From positions 1-46,496 of the forward strand of contig JAAZNV010000014.1 in assembly GCA_012798115.1 (NCBI GenBank): a DNA stretch of 46,496 nucleotides, in the 5' to 3' direction. This document shows positions 1 through 46,496 of this stretch, in pieces (the stretch's first letter is position 1; the number at the start of each line of letters is the position of its first letter). The stretch is from a candidate division WWE3 bacterium. GTDB taxonomy: Bacteria; Patescibacteriota; WWE3; UBA101185; UBA10185. A program made the translations under genes and the position numbers. The notes beneath the pieces were generated by a model that saw nothing but the letters and a program-made list of their open reading frames with translations, searched no databases and was not told the DNA's origin.

Positions 1-482
1 CCATTATCAAAAGACACCGTATCAGGGTAGAAAATAAGCAATCCCATTTTAGAAATTTTAATTGGTTTAGCTTGTTTGGGATTTTCCATTGCAAATTTAT
101 AAGCAGTTAATTGAGTTCTGTACTTTTCGATTTTATCTTCACCCGGTTGGCTGATTTTGAGGTCAACAAGTGTATAGGTATCATCAGAGTTTTTACATAT
201 TAGATCGTACTTTCCTTTAATAAAGCAGGTCGTGCCAGGGACTGTAATAGATTCTACAAAACCTTCTTGGCTGATTACTTGGCAGTCTGGTAAGGTATCG
301 GATAGTGTATTAAGATTCTTGCCCACAAGACTCCCTTGAATTCTGGTATTAAGCGCTGAAAACACACCGGGCATAGGCATACTTGGTTGAGTAATCCCAT
401 ATTTTATTTTGAGGTAGTAACAGTGTTTGCATTCTTCATAGAGATAGGCGAAGTCTGATGGTGATAATTTGTAAATACTCAT
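1..482 (-). CDS. PD-(D/E)XK-like nuclease (RecB/Cas4-like), C-terminus cut by window edge
   Basis: Hand translation of minus strand from ATG at 482..480: MSIYKLSPSDFAYLYEECKHCYYLKIKYGITQPSMPMPG...FIKGKYDLICKNSDDTYTLVDLKISQPGEDKIEKYRTQLTAYKFAMENP. 'GKYDLI...LVDLKIS...YRTQLTAYKFA' matches the PD-(D/E)XK pattern. Start overlaps the stop of the upstream methylase (ATAATG). Not in the ORF track. Confidence 0.75.
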   Translation of the reverse strand, partial: MSIYKLSPSDFAYLYEECKHCYYLKIKYGITQPSMPMPGVFSALNTRIQGSLVGKNLNTLSDTLPDCQVISQEGFVESITVPGTTCFIKGKYDLICKNSDDTYTLVDLKISQPGEDKIEKYRTQLTAYKFAMENPKQAKPIKISKMGLLIFYPDTVSFDN

Positions 483-3400
483 TATATTGTTCCTTCAATC
501 AAACTTATCTCATCTGAGTCAAACCCGTATAATTCATAAAATAGTGAGTCTATCTGCTTTTCATAATTATTAACTTCTTTCTGCTTCTCTATATTAATAG
601 AGTAGTCGGTAGTGTTAGTTATATCGAGGATATCATTAACGAGGCTGATAAATGGCTTTTGATCTTCTAATGAAAGCTTTATTACTGGGATTTTTTCTAC
701 AGCAAATTTTTTCCATTGGATAGTGGCCATACCTGAACTATTACAAATTAGAGAAAAATAAAAATGGCATAATTTTGAATTTAAGAAAGCTAGTAAGTAC
801 TTTAAAGAATCTCCAACCATTAGAAATGCACCGGCTAGAATATAGTCTTCCTTATCAGAATATGCGAACTTATTCCTATTTGTAAGCTCAATCCATATAA
901 TTTTTTCACTCGTAAAATCTTGCATAAAAGCACAATCCCTAAGATTATAAATAGTTTGGCCTTTGTCCTGCCGTTTCTCGAGATTAGACTTATATTTATT
1001 TAAATGGCTCTTTATAGAGGGAAAGTCTTCAACATCTATCCTTGGAATTTCTGAACCCTCCTCAGTTTTATAGCCGTTGTGGGTAGTAATTAGGTATAAA
1101 CCTGACTCTCTATAGAAATATCTGCCTATATCCCTGCCTCTTATAATTGGTTTTATTATGCTTTCAGATTTTTTATCCTCTTTTACAACCTCTTCTTTTA
1201 TCTGATGGTCAATAATGAAGGCCTCATTAAAACCGGTTTTAATTCCATAATTTATTCTTATATTCCACTCAACCAATTCGGTCCCTCTGTCTTCTATTAT
1301 TTTCTTGATACTTATAATCTCAGGTTTTTCTATAGTCCATTCCCTTTCGTTTAGGTCATCTTGAAGAAATTCAAATTCATAGGGATTTCCAATACTTCTA
1401 GAGAAATAAAACCTGTTTTTACTAGTGTGTATTTTTGAAGCTATGAGTATAAGTGTATTTGTAATCGCTTCGAAAATATGTTGATCCCCAAAGTTTATTA
1501 TATTTCTAAGTGTCACGTTATATTTTATGTAACTTCTTAAAAATGAGCCATATCTTGCACGCAAGAATTTATTAGAAGTAATAAATGTTAAAGTTCCAGT
1601 AGTGTTTAGTAGCTTAAAACCCCTCTCATAAAAGTATGTGTAGAGATCTGATACTGAATTATATACGTCATATTCCTTTTCCAGCCCCTCCTTATACGTA
1701 ATTTCTTCTTGTCTTACGTAGGGTGGGTTAGCTATTATAACGTCAAAGCCTCCCTTGTCTTGAAATACTTCGCTATAGTTAAGCTTCCAAAGGAAAAATG
1801 GACGAATATTAGCTTTCTTAAATTTTTCAATTTCCCTCAGTTTAATATCATTCTTCTGTTCCTTAATCGTGGCTTCTATAAGATCCCAGGTTAGGGCATC
1901 AATCTGCTTCTTTATAGAGTCTTTTTGTTTTTTTTGTGAAATACTAAAGAATTCCTTCTGAAGTTCTTTAAGTTTATCTGCTTTTAACTTAGCCTCACTA
2001 ACGAGCTCAAATAGACTAGTATTGTTCGCCTTACTTTTTGTCGCCTTACTTAATTTTTTTAACATTTCATTGTGTTTCTTTATTTCAGACTCTATTTGAA
2101 TCCTTCTGTCAGAATTAAGACCGCCGTTGGAGTATAGATTGAAAAACTCTCTTTGTAATTCATTAATCTTGTTTTTAATTTCATTCATTTGTGAACTGCT
2201 ATCATAGGTTGGATTGTTTATTATTTCTTCATCAAACAGTTTTATACCTTCGTATTCTTGGAGTAGACTATTACCTTGCATTATTTTATAGTCGAGGTTC
2301 GGCAATGGTTTTATAAGGTTTATGTCTTTTTCTTCTACAATCAAGGACAACCAAAGTCTAAGTTTAGCTATTTCAGTGGCACCGAGGTCTATGTCTACAC
2401 CATATAAATTATCTTGAATTGCGTGATGTTTTAAAGCATAAACAGACCTATCTCCATCTACTAAATAACTTGAGATGATACTTCTTACCTTAACGATTTC
2501 GGTCATCATTCCTACCAAAAAGGCACCAGAACCGACCGCAGGGTCACAAACTCTGATATTGGATAATGCTTCATCTATTTCTTTAGCGTTTGATACAACA
2601 CTTGCGGGCAACTTATAAAAATAGGTCGCAGTTTCCTCTCCAGCTTTAGTTACCACCTTATCGTTCTCGACAGCAGCCTCGCCAACTTTAATAAGTGTGT
2701 CTATGTCTTTCTTATCAATTTTTTCTTTTAGCTCTCCGACAAGGTAATTTGCTAAACTCTCCTGGCACATATAATGTACGATCTCACGTGGTGTGTAATA
2801 TGCTCCTTTTGATTTTCTATCCTTAATCTCCAGCAGGTTTTCAAATACTTTCCCGAGCATCTCAGGATCTACTGCAACTTCTTTTTCTAAGGGCTCATCC
2901 TCCTTAACTGTAAAGTTATATCTGTCGAAAACATCCAATATTGCTGTCCCTAAATCTCCCTCAGCAGTTTTTTCCTTGTTAGAAAAAAGGCTATTTGGTA
3001 GTTGTATGTCTGTATGTACCCAGTCGTAATTATTTAATGGATCAAATAAACCTCCGTTCAAAAAAGGAATCTTACTGTTAAATCTACTATAAAAATTATC
3101 GGGTCTTTCTGTAGCGAGTGCTTCGTAGAAGAGTGGTTCTAAAATATCATTGAAAAAGTTAGTGTAATTAGTTATTTGACTATCAAATAATTTCCTAAGA
3201 AAATCTTTTGGACCCGTACCCCATTCATCGTCTCGCTTTACACCAAACCACCCCTTTTTTTGTAAGAAATATAAAAATACAATTTGTCCTAGAAGTTTTT
3301 TGGAAAAGTCAGATGTGCTAATACTCTTATCTTCGAAATCTTTTTTTATCAAAGGGTCGTTTTTCAGTTGTTCATCAAGCTCATCCTTTACTTTCAAAAA

Positions 3401-4021
3401 CAATTCTCTATATTTTTCAAAGAATTCTTTGGTTACCTTTTCAATATTAAAAGCCTCCTCAAGTTGGTTTAATGTGGGGTTATCCTTATCATCCTCGATA
3501 ATTGGTACGAGTCGGCTTTGAGCAGTGTGGCTTGATTCGTTGTTTCCTACAAGAAAGGAAAATCTTTTAGCGGGAGTTAATTCCTTCTTAATCTTTACTT
3601 TACCATTTTGGCTGTTATCGATAGCATACTCCATTCTTACTAGTGAAAAGCGCCAATCGATCTCGTTCGGGGAAACAAATGCTACTAAAGCAGCGTCCTT
3701 TAATATGTCTCCTCTACTGCCGTTTAAGTACCAAGCAACAAAGTTTCTTTGCATGCTTCTTGCTTGCTCCAGTGAAGTTTCTTTGTTTAGATTTACTATC
3801 AATATGTCAATTTCGTTTTCCTCAGAGTCTTTATACTTTCCAAGCCTTTCAAGTGTATTTATATAATCTCTATACGCGGTGGGGATATAATTACCACGGT
3901 ATACAAATGTTTTTTCTTCAAATACGTTTAATAGGTTTTTAATGAAATAGTGGAATTTCTCTTTATCAAATTTGTTTTCAAAAGTGTCTTTAACAATCTT
4001 TCTGGCTAATTCTTTATTCAC
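482..4021 (-). CDS. Eco57I-like / type IIG-like N6-adenine DNA methylase
   Basis: 1179 aa; SAM motif VCDPAVGSGAFLVGMM and catalytic NPPY (DVIIANPPYVRQEE); C-terminal TRD-like region; GTG start immediately after the helicase stop. Confidence 0.85.
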   Translation of the reverse strand: MNKELARKIVKDTFENKFDKEKFHYFIKNLLNVFEEKTFVYRGNYIPTAYRDYINTLERLGKYKDSEENEIDILIVNLNKETSLEQARSMQRNFVAWYLNGSRGDILKDAALVAFVSPNEIDWRFSLVRMEYAIDNSQNGKVKIKKELTPAKRFSFLVGNNESSHTAQSRLVPIIEDDKDNPTLNQLEEAFNIEKVTKEFFEKYRELFLKVKDELDEQLKNDPLIKKDFEDKSISTSDFSKKLLGQIVFLYFLQKKGWFGVKRDDEWGTGPKDFLRKLFDSQITNYTNFFNDILEPLFYEALATERPDNFYSRFNSKIPFLNGGLFDPLNNYDWVHTDIQLPNSLFSNKEKTAEGDLGTAILDVFDRYNFTVKEDEPLEKEVAVDPEMLGKVFENLLEIKDRKSKGAYYTPREIVHYMCQESLANYLVGELKEKIDKKDIDTLIKVGEAAVENDKVVTKAGEETATYFYKLPASVVSNAKEIDEALSNIRVCDPAVGSGAFLVGMMTEIVKVRSIISSYLVDGDRSVYALKHHAIQDNLYGVDIDLGATEIAKLRLWLSLIVEEKDINLIKPLPNLDYKIMQGNSLLQEYEGIKLFDEEIINNPTYDSSSQMNEIKNKINELQREFFNLYSNGGLNSDRRIQIESEIKKHNEMLKKLSKATKSKANNTSLFELVSEAKLKADKLKELQKEFFSISQKKQKDSIKKQIDALTWDLIEATIKEQKNDIKLREIEKFKKANIRPFFLWKLNYSEVFQDKGGFDVIIANPPYVRQEEITYKEGLEKEYDVYNSVSDLYTYFYERGFKLLNTTGTLTFITSNKFLRARYGSFLRSYIKYNVTLRNIINFGDQHIFEAITNTLILIASKIHTSKNRFYFSRSIGNPYEFEFLQDDLNEREWTIEKPEIISIKKIIEDRGTELVEWNIRINYGIKTGFNEAFIIDHQIKEEVVKEDKKSESIIKPIIRGRDIGRYFYRESGLYLITTHNGYKTEEGSEIPRIDVEDFPSIKSHLNKYKSNLEKRQDKGQTIYNLRDCAFMQDFTSEKIIWIELTNRNKFAYSDKEDYILAGAFLMVGDSLKYLLAFLNSKLCHFYFSLICNSSGMATIQWKKFAVEKIPVIKLSLEDQKPFISLVNDILDITNTTDYSINIEKQKEVNNYEKQIDSLFYELYGFDSDEISLIEGTI

Positions 4022-4022
4022 C

Positions 4023-7000
4023 TTACTGTCCTTTCCCAGTGAAATACTCAGATAGTATTACTTCCCTAGGGCCAGAAGTCTGTGCAGAACTCTCCGCTAA
4101 AGACTCTTTGAAAAGCTCATTAGGTATATCTCGTTTACAAACTGCAATTACTTTCAATGGGTCAATTGATGATTTTAATTCCTCATCTATTTCTTGTTTT
4201 AGCACTTTCAGAGTTTGCCTTGGTAATACACCTTCCTCCAATAAACGTATAACGTCTTTAAGATACTGTTCTTGATCCTCAGTAAATCCTTGATAGTGTT
4301 TGATTTGATTACTATTGAGATATTTCAATAACTGAGTTGCATTATCTCTTCCACTTGTTTTCTCAGCGATTTCGGCTTCATCGGTTGTTGCAAAGGTAAA
4401 CTCTTCTTTACTTTTTTCTAATAGTTCATAGTAATTCTTTCCCATCTTTTCTCTCTGAGTTTCTGGTTCTACTGTTAATAGATTAGCGGTAGTTATAAAA
4501 TCTAATTCGGTCGCTGTCTTACTGTCACTCAAGTAGAACTTTTCAAGTCTTCCCTTTCTCATGTATGAAAGCAGGGAGTTTTTATGCTCGTTTTGTGTAC
4601 GTGCAGTACGAGCTTTTCTGGGAAGCCTCTTTATTTTTTCGAACAAATCTACTTCTTTATCGCGAATATCCTTTATTACATGTAAGAACTTAAGCTCGCT
4701 CTCCTCATCCTTACCTTCGCCAGTGATAGTCTCTTTCATAGTCAACTGTTGGAATAAGTCGTGAGATTTGATTTCTTCTCCATCAGTTAATAAGCGAGCG
4801 TCATTACCCAACATCTCTATAAACATTTTAATTTTATATTCAGCAGCTTCCTTTAGTTGTATTTGATTATTGGCTTGCTGTGTTGGAAAGAAATTAAAAG
4901 TATATATAACATCAAACTTTGTATCGACGCGATTTATACGTCCCACTCTCTGCATTAATCTGGTTGGATTCCAAGGAAGGTCGTAGTTTATAACAACATT
5001 GGATCGGTGTAAATTTACACCTTCTGCTAAAACCTCTGTTGTAACCAGTATTCTAAAGTCATCACTTCTGTTTCTAGCTCTTGCGTCGAAGTTGTCTATA
5101 ACTTGATTTCTAATAATGTTACTTGAGGCACCAGTAAAAAGCAGTGTTTGGGTAGGAAAGTTACTTTCCAAATTCTTCTGAATATATTCTGCTGTTTCTT
5201 TAGATTCTGTAAATATTATTAACTTATTTTCCTTTAAGATGTTGTTTGATTTAAGGTTTGAAACAAATTCCAAAAGCTTTGGATCCCTATTAATCTTATT
5301 CCACAATTTCTGTATATCTGTAAGTATCCTCATATCATTTAATAGATTTTCTTTAAGCTGCGGATCGAAGTCATCTGTTGAGTATTTTTGAGCCTTATCC
5401 TCATCAATTAGCCTTTGTACTGCCTCATCATCATCGTTTTCAAGCATTTCAAATATCTTGTCTACATATCCTTTACTCACATAAACGTTTCCCTTCTCAT
5501 ATTCGTTTATAAACTGCTCATACGAGTAAAGAAATCTTTTTAATGTTTGCTTGAATGCAAAGAAACTACTTTCAAGACGTTTTATCAGGAGTATTTTCAT
5601 GAAACGACCCATATTTCTTTGTCCTTGTTCCTCAATGTTTTTTTGTTCACCGGTGAAATAAAGCATCGGCATATATCTTGAATAGGTAAATTCTTTTGTT
5701 ATTAATTCGATGGTTTTATTAAAAATCTCATCCTCCTCAGTATCTAGTTGATAAAATATCGGTTCGGGGTTCGCTACCTCAGGAAACTTTAAATTTTGCC
5801 TTTTTAAATCCTCACCAAAGTATTTTTGTATCTCGCTTCTGGTTCTTCTAACCATAAGGTGCTTTAGCACCTTCTCACGAATATCCCTTGAGTTTTGTTC
5901 TACCACAGACATATACTCCTCGTGGTCATCTTGTCTGTTTAACCCCTTAAGGTTGTTATCAAGTTTTGCAAAGAAAGATTCAAGATTGGGTAGTCCAGGC
6001 AAAGTGCTTTTTTTGGATTTTTGAAAAAGTTTTATTTGGCTCAGAATATCCTTAGGTGAATTATTTAAAGGTGTGGCTGTAATTAATATAACCCTCTTAC
6101 CCCAGCATATTTGTTTTAACAACTCGTATCTTCCTGTGACTTCGTTCCTAAAATTGTGGGATTCGTCTATAAAAACATTTTTATACTCCTCGGTTCCTTT
6201 CGCCACTAGTTTGTGCAATGATCCTATCGACTCAAAAGTTGCCGGTATATTGAAGTCTTTGAATACATTTCTCCATGAACCCAGATTTCTCTCGTCCAAA
6301 AGGTTAGGAGGTGCAAGAACTAAATTCCTACCCTCAAGTTGTTGGGCTAGCATGGAGGCGATATATGTTTTACCAAGACCCACGACATCCGAAATGAAAA
6401 CACCTCCATACTCTTCAACAATTCTTTTTGCGTTTAATACCGCCTGTTCTTGGTATTCCAAAGATTTAAAATTCTCGGGTATGTATTTATAAAATAACTC
6501 CTCAGATTGACTCAAGTCTGTTTTAAAATACTCATATAAAAACTTCAAATATAACTCATAAGGCGTGATCGTATCATTTAGCCAAGTTCTTTGCTGTACT
6601 GTTTCTATATATTTCTCGCTTACATCTACTGCCGACTCCCACAAGTGATTAAATTGTTTCTGTGCAAAAGAAACATCCTCAGGTCTACTCAATTCAACGT
6701 TAAACTCTAGGTTGTCAACAAGACCACTTTTTGTAAAATTGCTCGATCCTGTAATAACCCTTCCGACATCTCTATCTCCTTCCTTAAAACCCATAATATA
6801 GAGTTTTGCGTGTAGATTCTCTGTAGGATAAGCCTTTATCTCGAGCTTGCCCGATCTTAACCACTCGATAAATTTGTACACACCTTTTTCAACAGCTTCG
6901 GAATCTTTGGAGTTTTCTAACTCACTAAAAATCATGTTTTCAAAGTGTGTTTTTGTTTCTGAGTAAGAATATTCAAGCTCAAGTTGTTTTGATTTCTCTA

Positions 7001-7229
7001 TGAAAGTAGTTACTTCACTACTGGTACCTATACCAATAAGTATTCTTATTTTATTTGTTGTTTCTAAAGACTCGTATAATTCATGGAAACCACTTGAGTA
7101 AAAATACCCAACCAAAACATCAAAATACGCAGTATCTTTTATGAGTGTTCTAAATCTATCTAAAAGGGAGCTATTATTCTCGTTTGTAATAAAGCTTGTG
7201 TCTGTGCTCATATTGTCATTATAACTCAA
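4023..7229 (-). CDS. PLD-like nuclease domain fused to SNF2-type helicase
   Basis: 1068 aa; N-terminal HKD-like motif (NLHAKLYIMGF...VITGSSNFTKSGL), Walker A SDVVGLGKTYIAS, DEAH-like FIDESHNFRN, helicase C motif RLMQRVGRINRVDTKFDVIYTFNFFPT. Confidence 0.85.
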   Translation of the reverse strand: MSYNDNMSTDTSFITNENNSSLLDRFRTLIKDTAYFDVLVGYFYSSGFHELYESLETTNKIRILIGIGTSSEVTTFIEKSKQLELEYSYSETKTHFENMIFSELENSKDSEAVEKGVYKFIEWLRSGKLEIKAYPTENLHAKLYIMGFKEGDRDVGRVITGSSNFTKSGLVDNLEFNVELSRPEDVSFAQKQFNHLWESAVDVSEKYIETVQQRTWLNDTITPYELYLKFLYEYFKTDLSQSEELFYKYIPENFKSLEYQEQAVLNAKRIVEEYGGVFISDVVGLGKTYIASMLAQQLEGRNLVLAPPNLLDERNLGSWRNVFKDFNIPATFESIGSLHKLVAKGTEEYKNVFIDESHNFRNEVTGRYELLKQICWGKRVILITATPLNNSPKDILSQIKLFQKSKKSTLPGLPNLESFFAKLDNNLKGLNRQDDHEEYMSVVEQNSRDIREKVLKHLMVRRTRSEIQKYFGEDLKRQNLKFPEVANPEPIFYQLDTEEDEIFNKTIELITKEFTYSRYMPMLYFTGEQKNIEEQGQRNMGRFMKILLIKRLESSFFAFKQTLKRFLYSYEQFINEYEKGNVYVSKGYVDKIFEMLENDDDEAVQRLIDEDKAQKYSTDDFDPQLKENLLNDMRILTDIQKLWNKINRDPKLLEFVSNLKSNNILKENKLIIFTESKETAEYIQKNLESNFPTQTLLFTGASSNIIRNQVIDNFDARARNRSDDFRILVTTEVLAEGVNLHRSNVVINYDLPWNPTRLMQRVGRINRVDTKFDVIYTFNFFPTQQANNQIQLKEAAEYKIKMFIEMLGNDARLLTDGEEIKSHDLFQQLTMKETITGEGKDEESELKFLHVIKDIRDKEVDLFEKIKRLPRKARTARTQNEHKNSLLSYMRKGRLEKFYLSDSKTATELDFITTANLLTVEPETQREKMGKNYYELLEKSKEEFTFATTDEAEIAEKTSGRDNATQLLKYLNSNQIKHYQGFTEDQEQYLKDVIRLLEEGVLPRQTLKVLKQEIDEELKSSIDPLKVIAVCKRDIPNELFKESLAESSAQTSGPREVILSEYFTGKGQ

Positions 7230-15377: not shown

Positions 15378-15454
15378 TGGAGCGACGGACCGGACTCGAA
15401 CCGGCGACCTTCTCCTTGGCAAGGAGACGTTCTAACCAGCTGAACTACCGTCGC
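15378..15454 (-). tRNA. tRNA-Gly(GCC)
   Basis: GCGACGGTAGTTCAGCTGGTTAGAAC GTCTCC TTGCCAA GGAGA...GCCGGTTCGAGTCCGGTCCGTCGCT + CCA. Confidence 0.95.
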
Positions 15455-17198: not shown

Positions 17199-17285
17199 TG
17201 GTGGGCGGGACAGGACTTGAACCTGCACGGGTTTTACCCCATTAGCTCCTTAGGCTAACGCGTATGCCAATTCCGCCACCCGCCC
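17199..17285 (-). tRNA. tRNA-Leu(AAG)
   Basis: Class II tRNA; anticodon arm TTAGC CTAAGGA GCTAA; long variable arm; encoded CCA. Confidence 0.9.
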
Positions 17286-43430: not shown

Positions 43431-44645
43431 CTATAAATATTTTCTACCTTTTAACTTCTCTGGCATATACTCTTGATCTGTTTTCTTAGCTTCTAAACTA
43501 TGTTCATATTTATAACCTTTACCATACCCTATTTCCTTCATAAATTTAGTAGGAGCATTTCTAATTTCAAAAGGAACAGGTAAGTTACCATACTTTTCTA
43601 CGTCTTCTTTTACCTTCCCATAAGCAGTATAAAGTTTATTTGATTTAGGAGCTTTAGCTAAGTATGTAACAGTCTCTGCAAGTGCTAAGTTGCACTCAGG
43701 CATTCCAATAACCTCACATGCTTTAAATGCAGATACAGCAAGAATAAGAGCTTGAGGATCTTCTAAACCTACATCTTCTGATGCAAATCTAACTAATCTT
43801 CTTGCAACATAGATAGGATCTTGTCCTGCTTCAAGCATTCTGCCTAACCAATATAAAGCAGAATCAGGATCAGAACCTCTTAAAGACTTATGAAGAGCAG
43901 ATATTGTGTTATAAAACTCCTCACCTTTTAAATCAAATCCTAAATTTCTTCTCTGAAGAGCATTTTCTATGTGATTCATTTCTATCTTTTTTGATTTACT
44001 TAAGTTTGAAGCTATTTCTAAAACATTCAAAGCAATTCTTGCATCTCCGTTTGAGGATAAAGATAAGAAATCTAAAACATTAGACTCAACTTCTATTTTA
44101 AGTAAACTCACTCCCCTATTAATAATTGTTTTCAAATCATCTTCATCATGCTGTTTAAGAATCAATACTCTACATCTGGACATTAATGGTGATATAACTT
44201 CAAACGATGGGTTTTCAGTTGTTGCACCAATGAAGATAATGCTTCCCTTTTCAACATGGGGAAGAAGTGAATCTTGTTGTGCTTTATTAAATCTATGTAT
44301 TTCATCAACAAATACAATAGGAGGTATCTCATCCTTTTCTTCAGGAAGAATACCCAAACCCTTATCCTTTCTATTTTCTTGATTGGGAATTATCTTTTCT
44401 ATTTCTTTAGTAGATGTGTTTACTGCAGAAAATTCATAAAAGGTTCTACCAAGTTCGTTTGATATTATTCTTGCTAAGGTAGTTTTTCCTGATCCTGGGG
44501 GACCCCAGAATATTAATGAAGGAAAGAAATCAGTTTCTTTTGATCTTAGAAGAAGAGTTTTAATTACACCTACTATTTGTTCTTGACCAACAAAATCATC
44601 AATACCTTTAGGTCTTAATCTTTCTGCTAAGGGTTGAAGAGACAT
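43431..44645 (-). CDS. rarA: Replication-associated recombination protein A (AAA ATPase)
   Basis: PLAERLRPKGIDDFVGQEQIVG; FWGPPGSGKTTLARII; VFVDEIHRFNKAQQDSLLPHVEKG. Confidence 0.95.
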   Translation of the reverse strand: MSLQPLAERLRPKGIDDFVGQEQIVGVIKTLLLRSKETDFFPSLIFWGPPGSGKTTLARIISNELGRTFYEFSAVNTSTKEIEKIIPNQENRKDKGLGILPEEKDEIPPIVFVDEIHRFNKAQQDSLLPHVEKGSIIFIGATTENPSFEVISPLMSRCRVLILKQHDEDDLKTIINRGVSLLKIEVESNVLDFLSLSSNGDARIALNVLEIASNLSKSKKIEMNHIENALQRRNLGFDLKGEEFYNTISALHKSLRGSDPDSALYWLGRMLEAGQDPIYVARRLVRFASEDVGLEDPQALILAVSAFKACEVIGMPECNLALAETVTYLAKAPKSNKLYTAYGKVKEDVEKYGNLPVPFEIRNAPTKFMKEIGYGKGYKYEHSLEAKKTDQEYMPEKLKGRKYL

Positions 44646-44709: not shown

Positions 44710-44738
44710 TTGACAGAGAAGCACTGTTCTGATAGATT
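44710..44738 (+). promoter_or_regulatory. sigma70-like promoter for the tRNA-Ala transcript
   Basis: TTGACA N17 TAGATT. Confidence 0.55.
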
Positions 44739-44757: not shown

Positions 44758-44836
44758 GGACGTGTAGCTCAGTTGGCTAATTTAGAGCGCTTCCATGGCA
44801 TGGAAGAGGTCGGGGGTTCAAATCCTCCCGCGTCCA
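44758..44836 (+). tRNA. tRNA-Ala(GGC), atypical (A3:U70, CTA instead of CCA)
   Basis: GGACGTG TA GCTC...GAGC G CTTCC ATGGCAT GGAAG AGGTC GGGGG TTCAAAT CCTCC CGCGTCC A, then CTAG. Confidence 0.85.
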
Positions 44837-44982
44837 CTAGAGACATTAAGCATTCTTGATATGTCTCTAATGTTTACAGGGTGCTAAGTTAATACGGTAT
44901 GTTCACCCCTTCATACTGTAACCTCTAGCACCACTTTATATTACTCGCTAATTTTTATAAGAAGATTAGCGAGTTTTTTTAT
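44837..44982 (+). ncRNA. Structured tail downstream of tRNA-Ala, candidate sRNA
   Basis: Hairpin AGAGACAT...ATGTCTCT; long hairpin GGTGCTA...TACGGTATG...CATACTGTA...TAGCACC with C-rich loop TTCACCCCTT; terminator ACTCGCTAAT...ATTAGCGAGTTTTTTT. Confidence 0.5.
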
Positions 44983-45045
44983 CCTAGTTGATGATATTTC
45001 TTAACTATTAATAAACACAAAGCATATAATGTATTTAAGTTAATT

Positions 45046-46116
45046 ATGGTAGATACAAATGAAGGTAAAATTAAACAAATAGAAAATTTCTTAGACTCAA
45101 GGTATCCATCTTTTACTATTAAACAAATAACAAATGCAATTTATAAGCAAGGAGTAAAAAGTTATACTGATATATCAACAATCAAGAAAGAGCTAAGAGA
45201 AGAACTTAAAGATAAGTTTGGAAATGTATTATCACTTAAACCAATTGCTGTAACTAAAGAAAAACAAGCTCAAAAGATTCTTTTTGAAACAACAGATAAG
45301 CATAGAATTGAATCTGTAAGGATGGTTTATAAACCAAATGAAGAAAGAAAAGTTGAACATCAAGCTTTATGTGTTTCTACTCAAAGTGGGTGTGCAATGG
45401 GATGTAAATTTTGTGCAACAGGAGCTACAGGGTTTAGAAGAAACTTAACAGCTGATGAGATTGTAGATCAGTTTTTATACTTTATTCAAGAAAACATAAA
45501 TCTTGATACAGTATTTTTTAGTGGGATGGGAGAACCTTTAAATAACCCAAATTTTTTTAAATCTCTTGATATGTTTATCAACTATATAGGGCTGAGTCAA
45601 AGAAAGTTAAGTGTTTCAACATGCGGAATTACATCTGGTATTAGGAATATTACTAAAAAGTATCCTCAAGTAAATATTACATTGTCATTACATTTTCCTT
45701 TTCAAAGACAAAGAGAATCTTTAATGCCAGCAACGAAGAAATATCCATTACCTGAGGTATTGACTGCATTAAGAGAACATGTGTATAAAACAAATAAGAA
45801 GGTATTTCTAGCTTATGTTATGTTATCTAAAGTAAATGATACTGAAGAGCATGCTAAGGAACTATGTAGAATAATTAATAGGTCAGGAAGAAAAAATTAT
45901 CTTTTTCATGTTAATTTGATTAAGTTTCATGAAGGCTCTACTTTATCTTCTTTCAAACATTCTACAAAGGAAGATTTTAATAAGTTTTGCAAGATATTAG
46001 AAAGTAAACATATTAATTATACTATTAGACAAAACTTTGGGTCTGATATTGAAGCAGCTTGTGGTCAATTGTATGCAAGATACACATCCAAATCTTCCAA
46101 TTTGACAAGATTTTGA
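45046..46116 (+). CDS. rlmN: 23S rRNA (adenine(2503)-C2)-methyltransferase, radical SAM
   Basis: CVSTQSGCAMGCKFCATGATGFRRNLTADEIVDQ; FFSGMGEPLNN. Confidence 0.95.
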   Translation: MVDTNEGKIKQIENFLDSRYPSFTIKQITNAIYKQGVKSYTDISTIKKELREELKDKFGNVLSLKPIAVTKEKQAQKILFETTDKHRIESVRMVYKPNEERKVEHQALCVSTQSGCAMGCKFCATGATGFRRNLTADEIVDQFLYFIQENINLDTVFFSGMGEPLNNPNFFKSLDMFINYIGLSQRKLSVSTCGITSGIRNITKKYPQVNITLSLHFPFQRQRESLMPATKKYPLPEVLTALREHVYKTNKKVFLAYVMLSKVNDTEEHAKELCRIINRSGRKNYLFHVNLIKFHEGSTLSSFKHSTKEDFNKFCKILESKHINYTIRQNFGSDIEAACGQLYARYTSKSSNLTRF

Positions 46117-46163
46117 GGTTTTGATAGATTGATATTCTTGAAAATTAAAAGGAAGGAAGTATT

Positions 46164-46237
46164 TGGGACCTAGATCAATTGGTTAGATCGTCCTCTTACC
46201 AAGAGGAAGGTTCTAGGTTCAAATCCTAGGGTCTTAT
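46164..46237 (+). tRNA. tRNA-Gly(ACC), atypical (U1:A72, G3:U70, CTA instead of CCA)
   Basis: TGGGACC TA GATC AATTGGTTA GATC G TCCTC TTACCAA GAGGA AGGTT CTAGG TTCAAAT CCTAG GGTCTTA T, then CTAG. Confidence 0.75.
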
Positions 46238-46371
46238 CTAGGGCATTTGGGTAGATCCTCCTTTCTATGTTTAGGATAAGAAATAAGCCCTCCTATCCCT
46301 GCATTTCCCAAATGCCCTTAAAAACTTTACTCGCTATGTTTAATCTAAAGACGTAGCGAGTTTTTTTATTT
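46238..46371 (+). ncRNA. Structured tail downstream of tRNA-Gly(ACC), candidate sRNA
   Basis: Long stem AGGGCATTTGGG...CCCAAATGCCCT enclosing GATCCTCCTTTCT and CCCTCCTATCC; terminator ACTCGCTA...TAGCGAGTTTTTTT. Confidence 0.5.
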
Positions 46372-46421
46372 CAAAAAAGGAGGATATAGTCTATAATATC
46401 AAAGACAATCTCATTAGATTA

Positions 46422-46496
46422 GGGGGCGTAGCTCAGCGGTAGAGCAGCGGCCTTTTAAGCCGCGTGTCATGGGTTCGATCCCCATCGCCCTCACCA
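46422..46496 (+). tRNA. tRNA-Lys(TTT)
   Basis: GGGGGCGTAGCTCAGCGGTAGAGCA GCGGC CTTTTAA GCCGC...CATGGGTTCGATCCCCATCGCCCTCACCA, ends at window edge. Confidence 0.96.

Follow-up and report, generated by a model that had tools for sequence, protein, structure and literature searches.

A tRNA-Gly(ACC)-shaped gene of a WWE3 bacterium as the probable 5' domain of a structured small RNA

How can a bacterium accommodate a tRNA gene that combines a glycine anticodon with an acceptor pair typical of alanine? The question is raised by contig JAAZNV010000014.1 (assembly GCA_012798115.1) of a candidate division WWE3 bacterium, the whole stretch of which, 46,496 nucleotides, we refer to as the window. At positions 46164-46237 it carries a tRNA-like gene, hereafter (a), that reads as tRNA-Gly(ACC) with a G3:U70 pair; the original prediction offered that such a molecule could be mischarged, non-translational or specialised. 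We consider it moderately probable that (a) is not an elongator tRNA and forms instead the non-translational, tRNA-like 5' domain of a structured small RNA of ~220 nucleotides. The genome holding the window, G000 (760,854 bp, 14 contigs, 95% complete), was compared with its congeners G001, G002 and G003, and DNA and protein searches covered a set of 143 related genomes.

The cloverleaf of (a) is complete, as had been predicted. ARAGORN calls a tRNA at 46164-46238 and the Rfam model RF00005 matches 46164-46237 with 55.8 bits (gathering score 29, E 1.8e-9); a permissive-threshold Rfam search returned only tRNA and one sub-threshold chance match. The sequence (TGGGACC TA GATC AATTGGTTA GATC G TCCTC TTACCAA GAGGA AGGTT CTAGG TTCAAAT CCTAG GGTCTTA T) forms 21 of 21 stem pairs, as 7+4+5+5. 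The anticodon ACC in the loop TTACCAA, the acceptor pairs U1:A72, G2:U71 and G3:U70, and U73 are all as originally read. The bases of the tertiary contacts are intact (U8, A14, the Levitt pair A15-U48, G18G19 and TTCAAAT), U33 is present, and so are C35 and C36, which together with U73 are features of bacterial tRNA-Gly. When (a) is set against the host tRNA-Gly(GCC), which does exist in the window (15378-15454), both sides have changed in 12 of the 21 stem pairs with pairing kept in all; (a) is therefore not a decaying copy, and its structure has been retained. These double compensations and the intact stems, together with a dedicated near-consensus promoter and a terminator that (a) has in common with a twin gene, (b), make it very improbable that (a) is a functionless pseudogene in decay, even though decay would account for the lost CCA, the odd acceptor and the absence of the gene from G001 and G003.

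The identity elements of (a) fit neither amino acid well. The bacterial glycine determinants in the acceptor stem are G1-C72, C2-G71 and G3-C70 (PMC9976931), none of which (0/3) is kept in (a). The corresponding bacterial alanine determinants are G3:U70, A73, G2-C71, G4-C69 and G20 (PMC9976931); two of the five (G3:U70 and G4-C69) are present, and A73, G2-C71 and G20 are absent. Since charging needs a CCA end, and since these other alanine determinants are absent, mischarging with alanine through G3:U70 appears unlikely.

The CCA end itself is also informative. We inventoried 49 distinct tRNAs in G000, reading the stretches around tRNA matches, and 46 of them encode CCA; the only exceptions are (a), its twin (b) and a Tyr-like gene, (c). 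The CCA-bearing set includes glycine tRNAs with the anticodons GCC, TCC and CCC, and alanine tRNAs with TGC, CGC and GGC. In both (a) and (b) the discriminator base is followed by CTA. The CCA-adding enzyme family, PF01743, was not found in G000 by a search that was positive in 10 of 10 bacterial control genomes; nor was it found in any of the four genus members or in most of the family, whereas 72 of 112 good genomes among relatives up to phylum level have it. If misses are independent, the chance that incompleteness hides the enzyme in all four congeners is ~2e-5. RNase Z was likewise not recognised (best score 30.8 bits; cut-off 293). With CCA neither encoded nor, apparently, addable in this lineage, (a) most likely cannot be matured into a chargeable tRNA. 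Of the three options originally offered, the non-translational one is thus best supported by the missing CCA, the undetected enzymes and the lost glycine determinants. Where a lineage has CCA encoded in every working tRNA and lacks the enzyme, the presence or absence of CCA separates non-translational tRNA genes from working ones and so serves as a clean test at the genomic level.

A working tRNA, either a specialised tRNA-Gly or a mischarged one that inserts alanine at GGU with A34 read as A or as inosine, would be in keeping with the intact cloverleaf and its U33, C35, C36, U73 and Levitt pair, with the common use of GGU (171 of 445 glycine codons counted) and with the presence in G000 of the deaminase TadA with its HAE and PCPMC motifs. 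The A34 of (a) is in fact less odd locally than originally assumed, since besides TadA the genome has a tRNA-Leu(AAG), also with A34. Against a working tRNA stand the lack of both CCA and the enzyme that would add it, the missing glycine acceptor pairs, the incomplete alanine set and the fact that GGU is already read by tRNA-Gly(GCC), and we judge it improbable. TadA may serve tRNA-Leu(AAG) here. The AAG form is found in G000 and G003, and a GAG form in several relatives (window 17199-17285; L336; L011; L344); the arginine tRNA has GCG, not ACG, yet TadA is present.

Within the window, the promoter pattern TTGACA-N17-TAGATT has two occurrences, one immediately preceding (a) and the other immediately preceding (b) (shuffle mean 0.05), and in the whole 0.76 Mb genome it has three; the third match (C13) was discarded, having an ordinary open reading frame downstream and no TG extension. 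By their predicted promoters and terminators, (a) and (b) are matched transcription units (Table 1), and folding of the whole units yields z values of -5.3 for (a) and -7.0 for (b). ARAGORN labels (b) Gly(TCC) at 44758-44837, in the wrong register; the consistent fold has an anticodon arm of Ala(GGC) type, around which 27 nucleotides are identical to the host tRNA-Ala(GGC). G3:U70 is absent from (b). Downstream of the tRNA-like part, hairpins present C-rich apical loops: UCCUCCUU in (a), UUCACCCCUU in (b) and CCUCCC in the unit that G002 carries in the rarA/tRNA-Lys gap (see below). All 3 of these odd units have such a loop, compared with 3 of the 46 downstream regions of ordinary tRNAs (post hoc comparison; Fisher p 0.001).

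Table 1. Features at the (b)/(a) locus, in window coordinates.
Feature	Position	Strand	Remarks
rarA/mgsA AAA+ ATPase	43431..44645	-	left boundary of inserted block
Promoter of unit (b)	44710..44738	+	TTGACA-N17-TAGATT with TG extended -10
tRNA-like (b)	44758..44836	+	loop ATGGCAT (GGC, Ala-type), A3:U70, A73, 14-nucleotide D-loop, CTA end
Hairpin 1 of unit (b)	44838..44869	+	predicted fold
Hairpin 2 of unit (b)	44878..44935	+	apical loop UUCACCCCUU at 44902-44911
Intrinsic terminator of unit (b)	44943..44981	+	ACTCGCTA..TAGCGAGT-T7
Promoter-like element of cfr-like gene	45001-45030	+	TTAACT-N18-TATAAT
Cfr-like/RlmN-family radical SAM methyltransferase	45046..46116	+	356 amino acids, between (b) and (a)
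Promoter of unit (a)	46102..46130	+	TTGACA-N17-TAGATT with TG extended -10
tRNA-like (a)	46164..46237	+	anticodon ACC, U1:A72, G2:U71, G3:U70, U73, then CTA instead of CCA
Long hairpin of unit (a)	46240..46318	+	starts 2 nucleotides past U73; apical loop UCCUCCUU at 46256-46263
Intrinsic terminator of unit (a)	46329..46367	+	ACTCGCTA..TAGCGAGT-T7, arms same as unit (b)
Ordinary tRNA-Lys(TTT) with CCA	46422..46496	+	right boundary; next to rarA in G003 and G001

From these elements we infer that (a) is transcribed as an RNA of ~220 nucleotides and remains uncharged. Its own promoter would drive a transcript composed of the tRNA-like domain, the long hairpin with its C-rich apical loop and the intrinsic terminator. 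With CCA neither encoded nor, it seems, addable, and with the 3' hairpin beginning 2 nucleotides after the discriminator base, the tRNA-like domain would not be finished into a chargeable tRNA; the RNA would probably stay whole, or be processed at the 5' end alone, by RNase P, and would act as a tRNA-shaped non-coding RNA. Speculatively, it could be a regulator whose loop UCCUCCUU pairs with Shine-Dalgarno-like targets, or its tRNA-like part could serve as a decoy or a protein-binding site.

Several points weigh against such a small RNA. G000 may possess a CCA-adding or RNase Z activity that went unrecognised. Pairing of the C-rich loops with Shine-Dalgarno sequences is only suggestive, because shuffled sequences reach each of these loops in 10-18% of cases. 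The hairpins on the 3' side may be no more than terminators or trailers. In the DNA search of the related genomes, similarity to units (a) and (b) was confined to the tRNA body, and covariation therefore cannot probe selection on the hairpins.

The anticodon raises a further possibility, namely that (a) was brought in from elsewhere. According to a review, eight tRNA genes are universally missing, tRNA-Gly(ACC) being one of them (PMC8007984). Our pattern scan of 85,462 cellular genomes (GTDB) and of viral contigs (IMG/VR) found 16 matching stretches in the former (L080-L095) and 73 in the latter (L096-L168). Nearly all of the viral stretches are true tRNAs (about 70 well-formed) with GCG-type acceptors, many of them in phage tRNA clusters. 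Contrary to the review, the scan indicates that universal absence does not hold for tRNA-Gly(ACC), whose ordinary form is found almost exclusively in phages. One rival reading is that (a) is a translational tRNA imported recently, either from a phage or plasmid or as cargo of the cfr-like block; the donor would add CCA to it, and here it would be an unmaturable passenger. Such an import would agree with the phage bias. It would also agree with the patchy distribution of the block, which G001 and G003 lack and which differs in G002, with the cfr-like gene being merely 50% identical to that of G003 where rarA is 78% identical, and with the closest of 1174 tRNAs compared with (a) being a CCA-less Gln-like tRNA in an array of G002. 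On the other hand, (a) is not of the phage type. Like the phage tRNA-Gly(ACC) copies, (a) has the loop TTACCAA and U73, but those copies retain acceptors of the GCG type, with G1:C72; CCA is encoded in many of them, and many stand in arrays. By contrast, (a) has neither the acceptor nor the array setting and shows U1:A72, G2:U71 and G3:U70, no CCA, a stand-alone promoter and a hairpin. Stand-alone units with matched promoters and terminators are likewise unlike phage arrays. Phage BLAST of the units gave only ordinary tRNA matches, most of which fell on the tRNA-Lys portion of the query, and no phage match for the G002 array; a viral scan for the T-arm motif common to (a) and the G002 Gln-like tRNA gave no match, and a search for viral relatives of the cfr-like protein was equally negative. 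Import of a working tRNA therefore strikes us as rather unlikely; the block may be of foreign origin, and this is the main rival to the small RNA. If (a) has the shape of a tRNA but is not chargeable, it illustrates how tRNA-Gly(ACC) can occur in a cell without threat to the code.

The units flank a cfr-like gene, and the whole block occupies the gap between rarA and tRNA-Lys. This gap is short in G003 and nearly so in G001; in G000 it is filled by (b), the cfr-like gene and (a), and in G002 by three odd tRNA genes, again without CCA, that stand close together between a promoter and a hairpin terminator. The boundaries are marked by conserved motifs, TTCGTGTAAACTTCGGGT on the rarA side and the TATAAT-containing promoter of tRNA-Lys on the other. 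The pattern suggests that the block was gained in G000 and G002 rather than lost elsewhere. The cfr-like protein scores 391 bits with the CfrAB model and 268 with RlmN, below both curated cut-offs, and is the sole member of the RlmN/Cfr family found in G000 (E<=1e-40). At the same threshold, 36 of the 143 genomes have a match, and no CCA-less tRNA neighbours were seen beside the cfr-like genes of relatives.

Odd tRNA genes also occur elsewhere in the genus. The Tyr-like CCA-less gene (c) lies on another G000 contig, beside a normal tRNA-Tyr, and occupies the position upstream of normal tRNA-Tyr in three congeners: G000 (L359 599-681), G001 (L355 440-523) and G002 (L328 283-365). In G000 and G002 a long hairpin comes after it. 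Compared with the normal tRNA-Tyr it evolves more rapidly, with compensatory changes, and all examined pairs are intact. Since (c) has been kept in three genomes with its pairs intact despite this fast change, the genus appears to have structured tRNA-like RNAs without CCA among its features. In G002, moreover, 8 odd tRNAs, most of them without CCA, form an array upstream of groES/groEL (L286 2732-3696), and a separate, phage-like array of 10 tRNAs, 9 of which encode CCA, lies on a small contig (L324).

A bolder and less probable reading is that this lineage, having lost the CCA-adding enzyme, may have recast CCA-less tRNA genes as fast-evolving small RNAs at the recombination-prone tRNA-Lys site, where they would control expression, e.g. 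via ribosome-binding sites. If true, this would define a small-RNA class made up of a promoter, a tRNA-like domain, a hairpin with a C-rich loop and a terminator. Gram-positive small RNAs such as RsaE and the csRNAs have a C-rich apical loop complementary to the Shine-Dalgarno sequence and an intrinsic terminator, as predicted for unit (a); they differ in that they are not known to have a tRNA-like domain.

Among the known systems that we compared, the one most like (a) seems to be tRNA-Other, a pseudo-tRNA of Bacillus cereus. The latter has a Trp anticodon, Fur-linked control, experimental data and weak lysine charging in vitro, and its deletion alters antibiotic resistance (PMC3399842); in G000, a Cfr-like gene lies between the twin units. 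The likeness extends to a cloverleaf that scores as a tRNA (with ARAGORN and Rfam for (a)) and to a location bordering DNA that was apparently acquired. A pseudo-tRNA of this kind is also expressed within a longer RNA and has no role in translation; for (a) the former would be predicted from the promoter and terminator, and the latter from the missing CCA and the absence of the enzymes. Our case differs in comprising two paralogous units and in belonging to a genus without the CCA-adding enzyme. Staphylococcus, as cited in PMC8007984, provides another extra tRNA of glycine anticodon outside translation, the non-proteinogenic tRNA-Gly for cell-wall pentaglycine; there, however, the tRNA is efficiently glycylated, whereas (a) apparently cannot gain a CCA end.

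Two further observations concern the ends of the window. Contigs C7 and C4 share 141 bases across tRNA-Lys (window 46356-46496; C4 end, L008), and C4 therefore continues the window. Near the other end, positions 482-7229 hold two large genes, one resembling a BREX PglX-type methyltransferase and the other a helicase of the DISARM/phospholipase-D type, possibly a phage-defence island.
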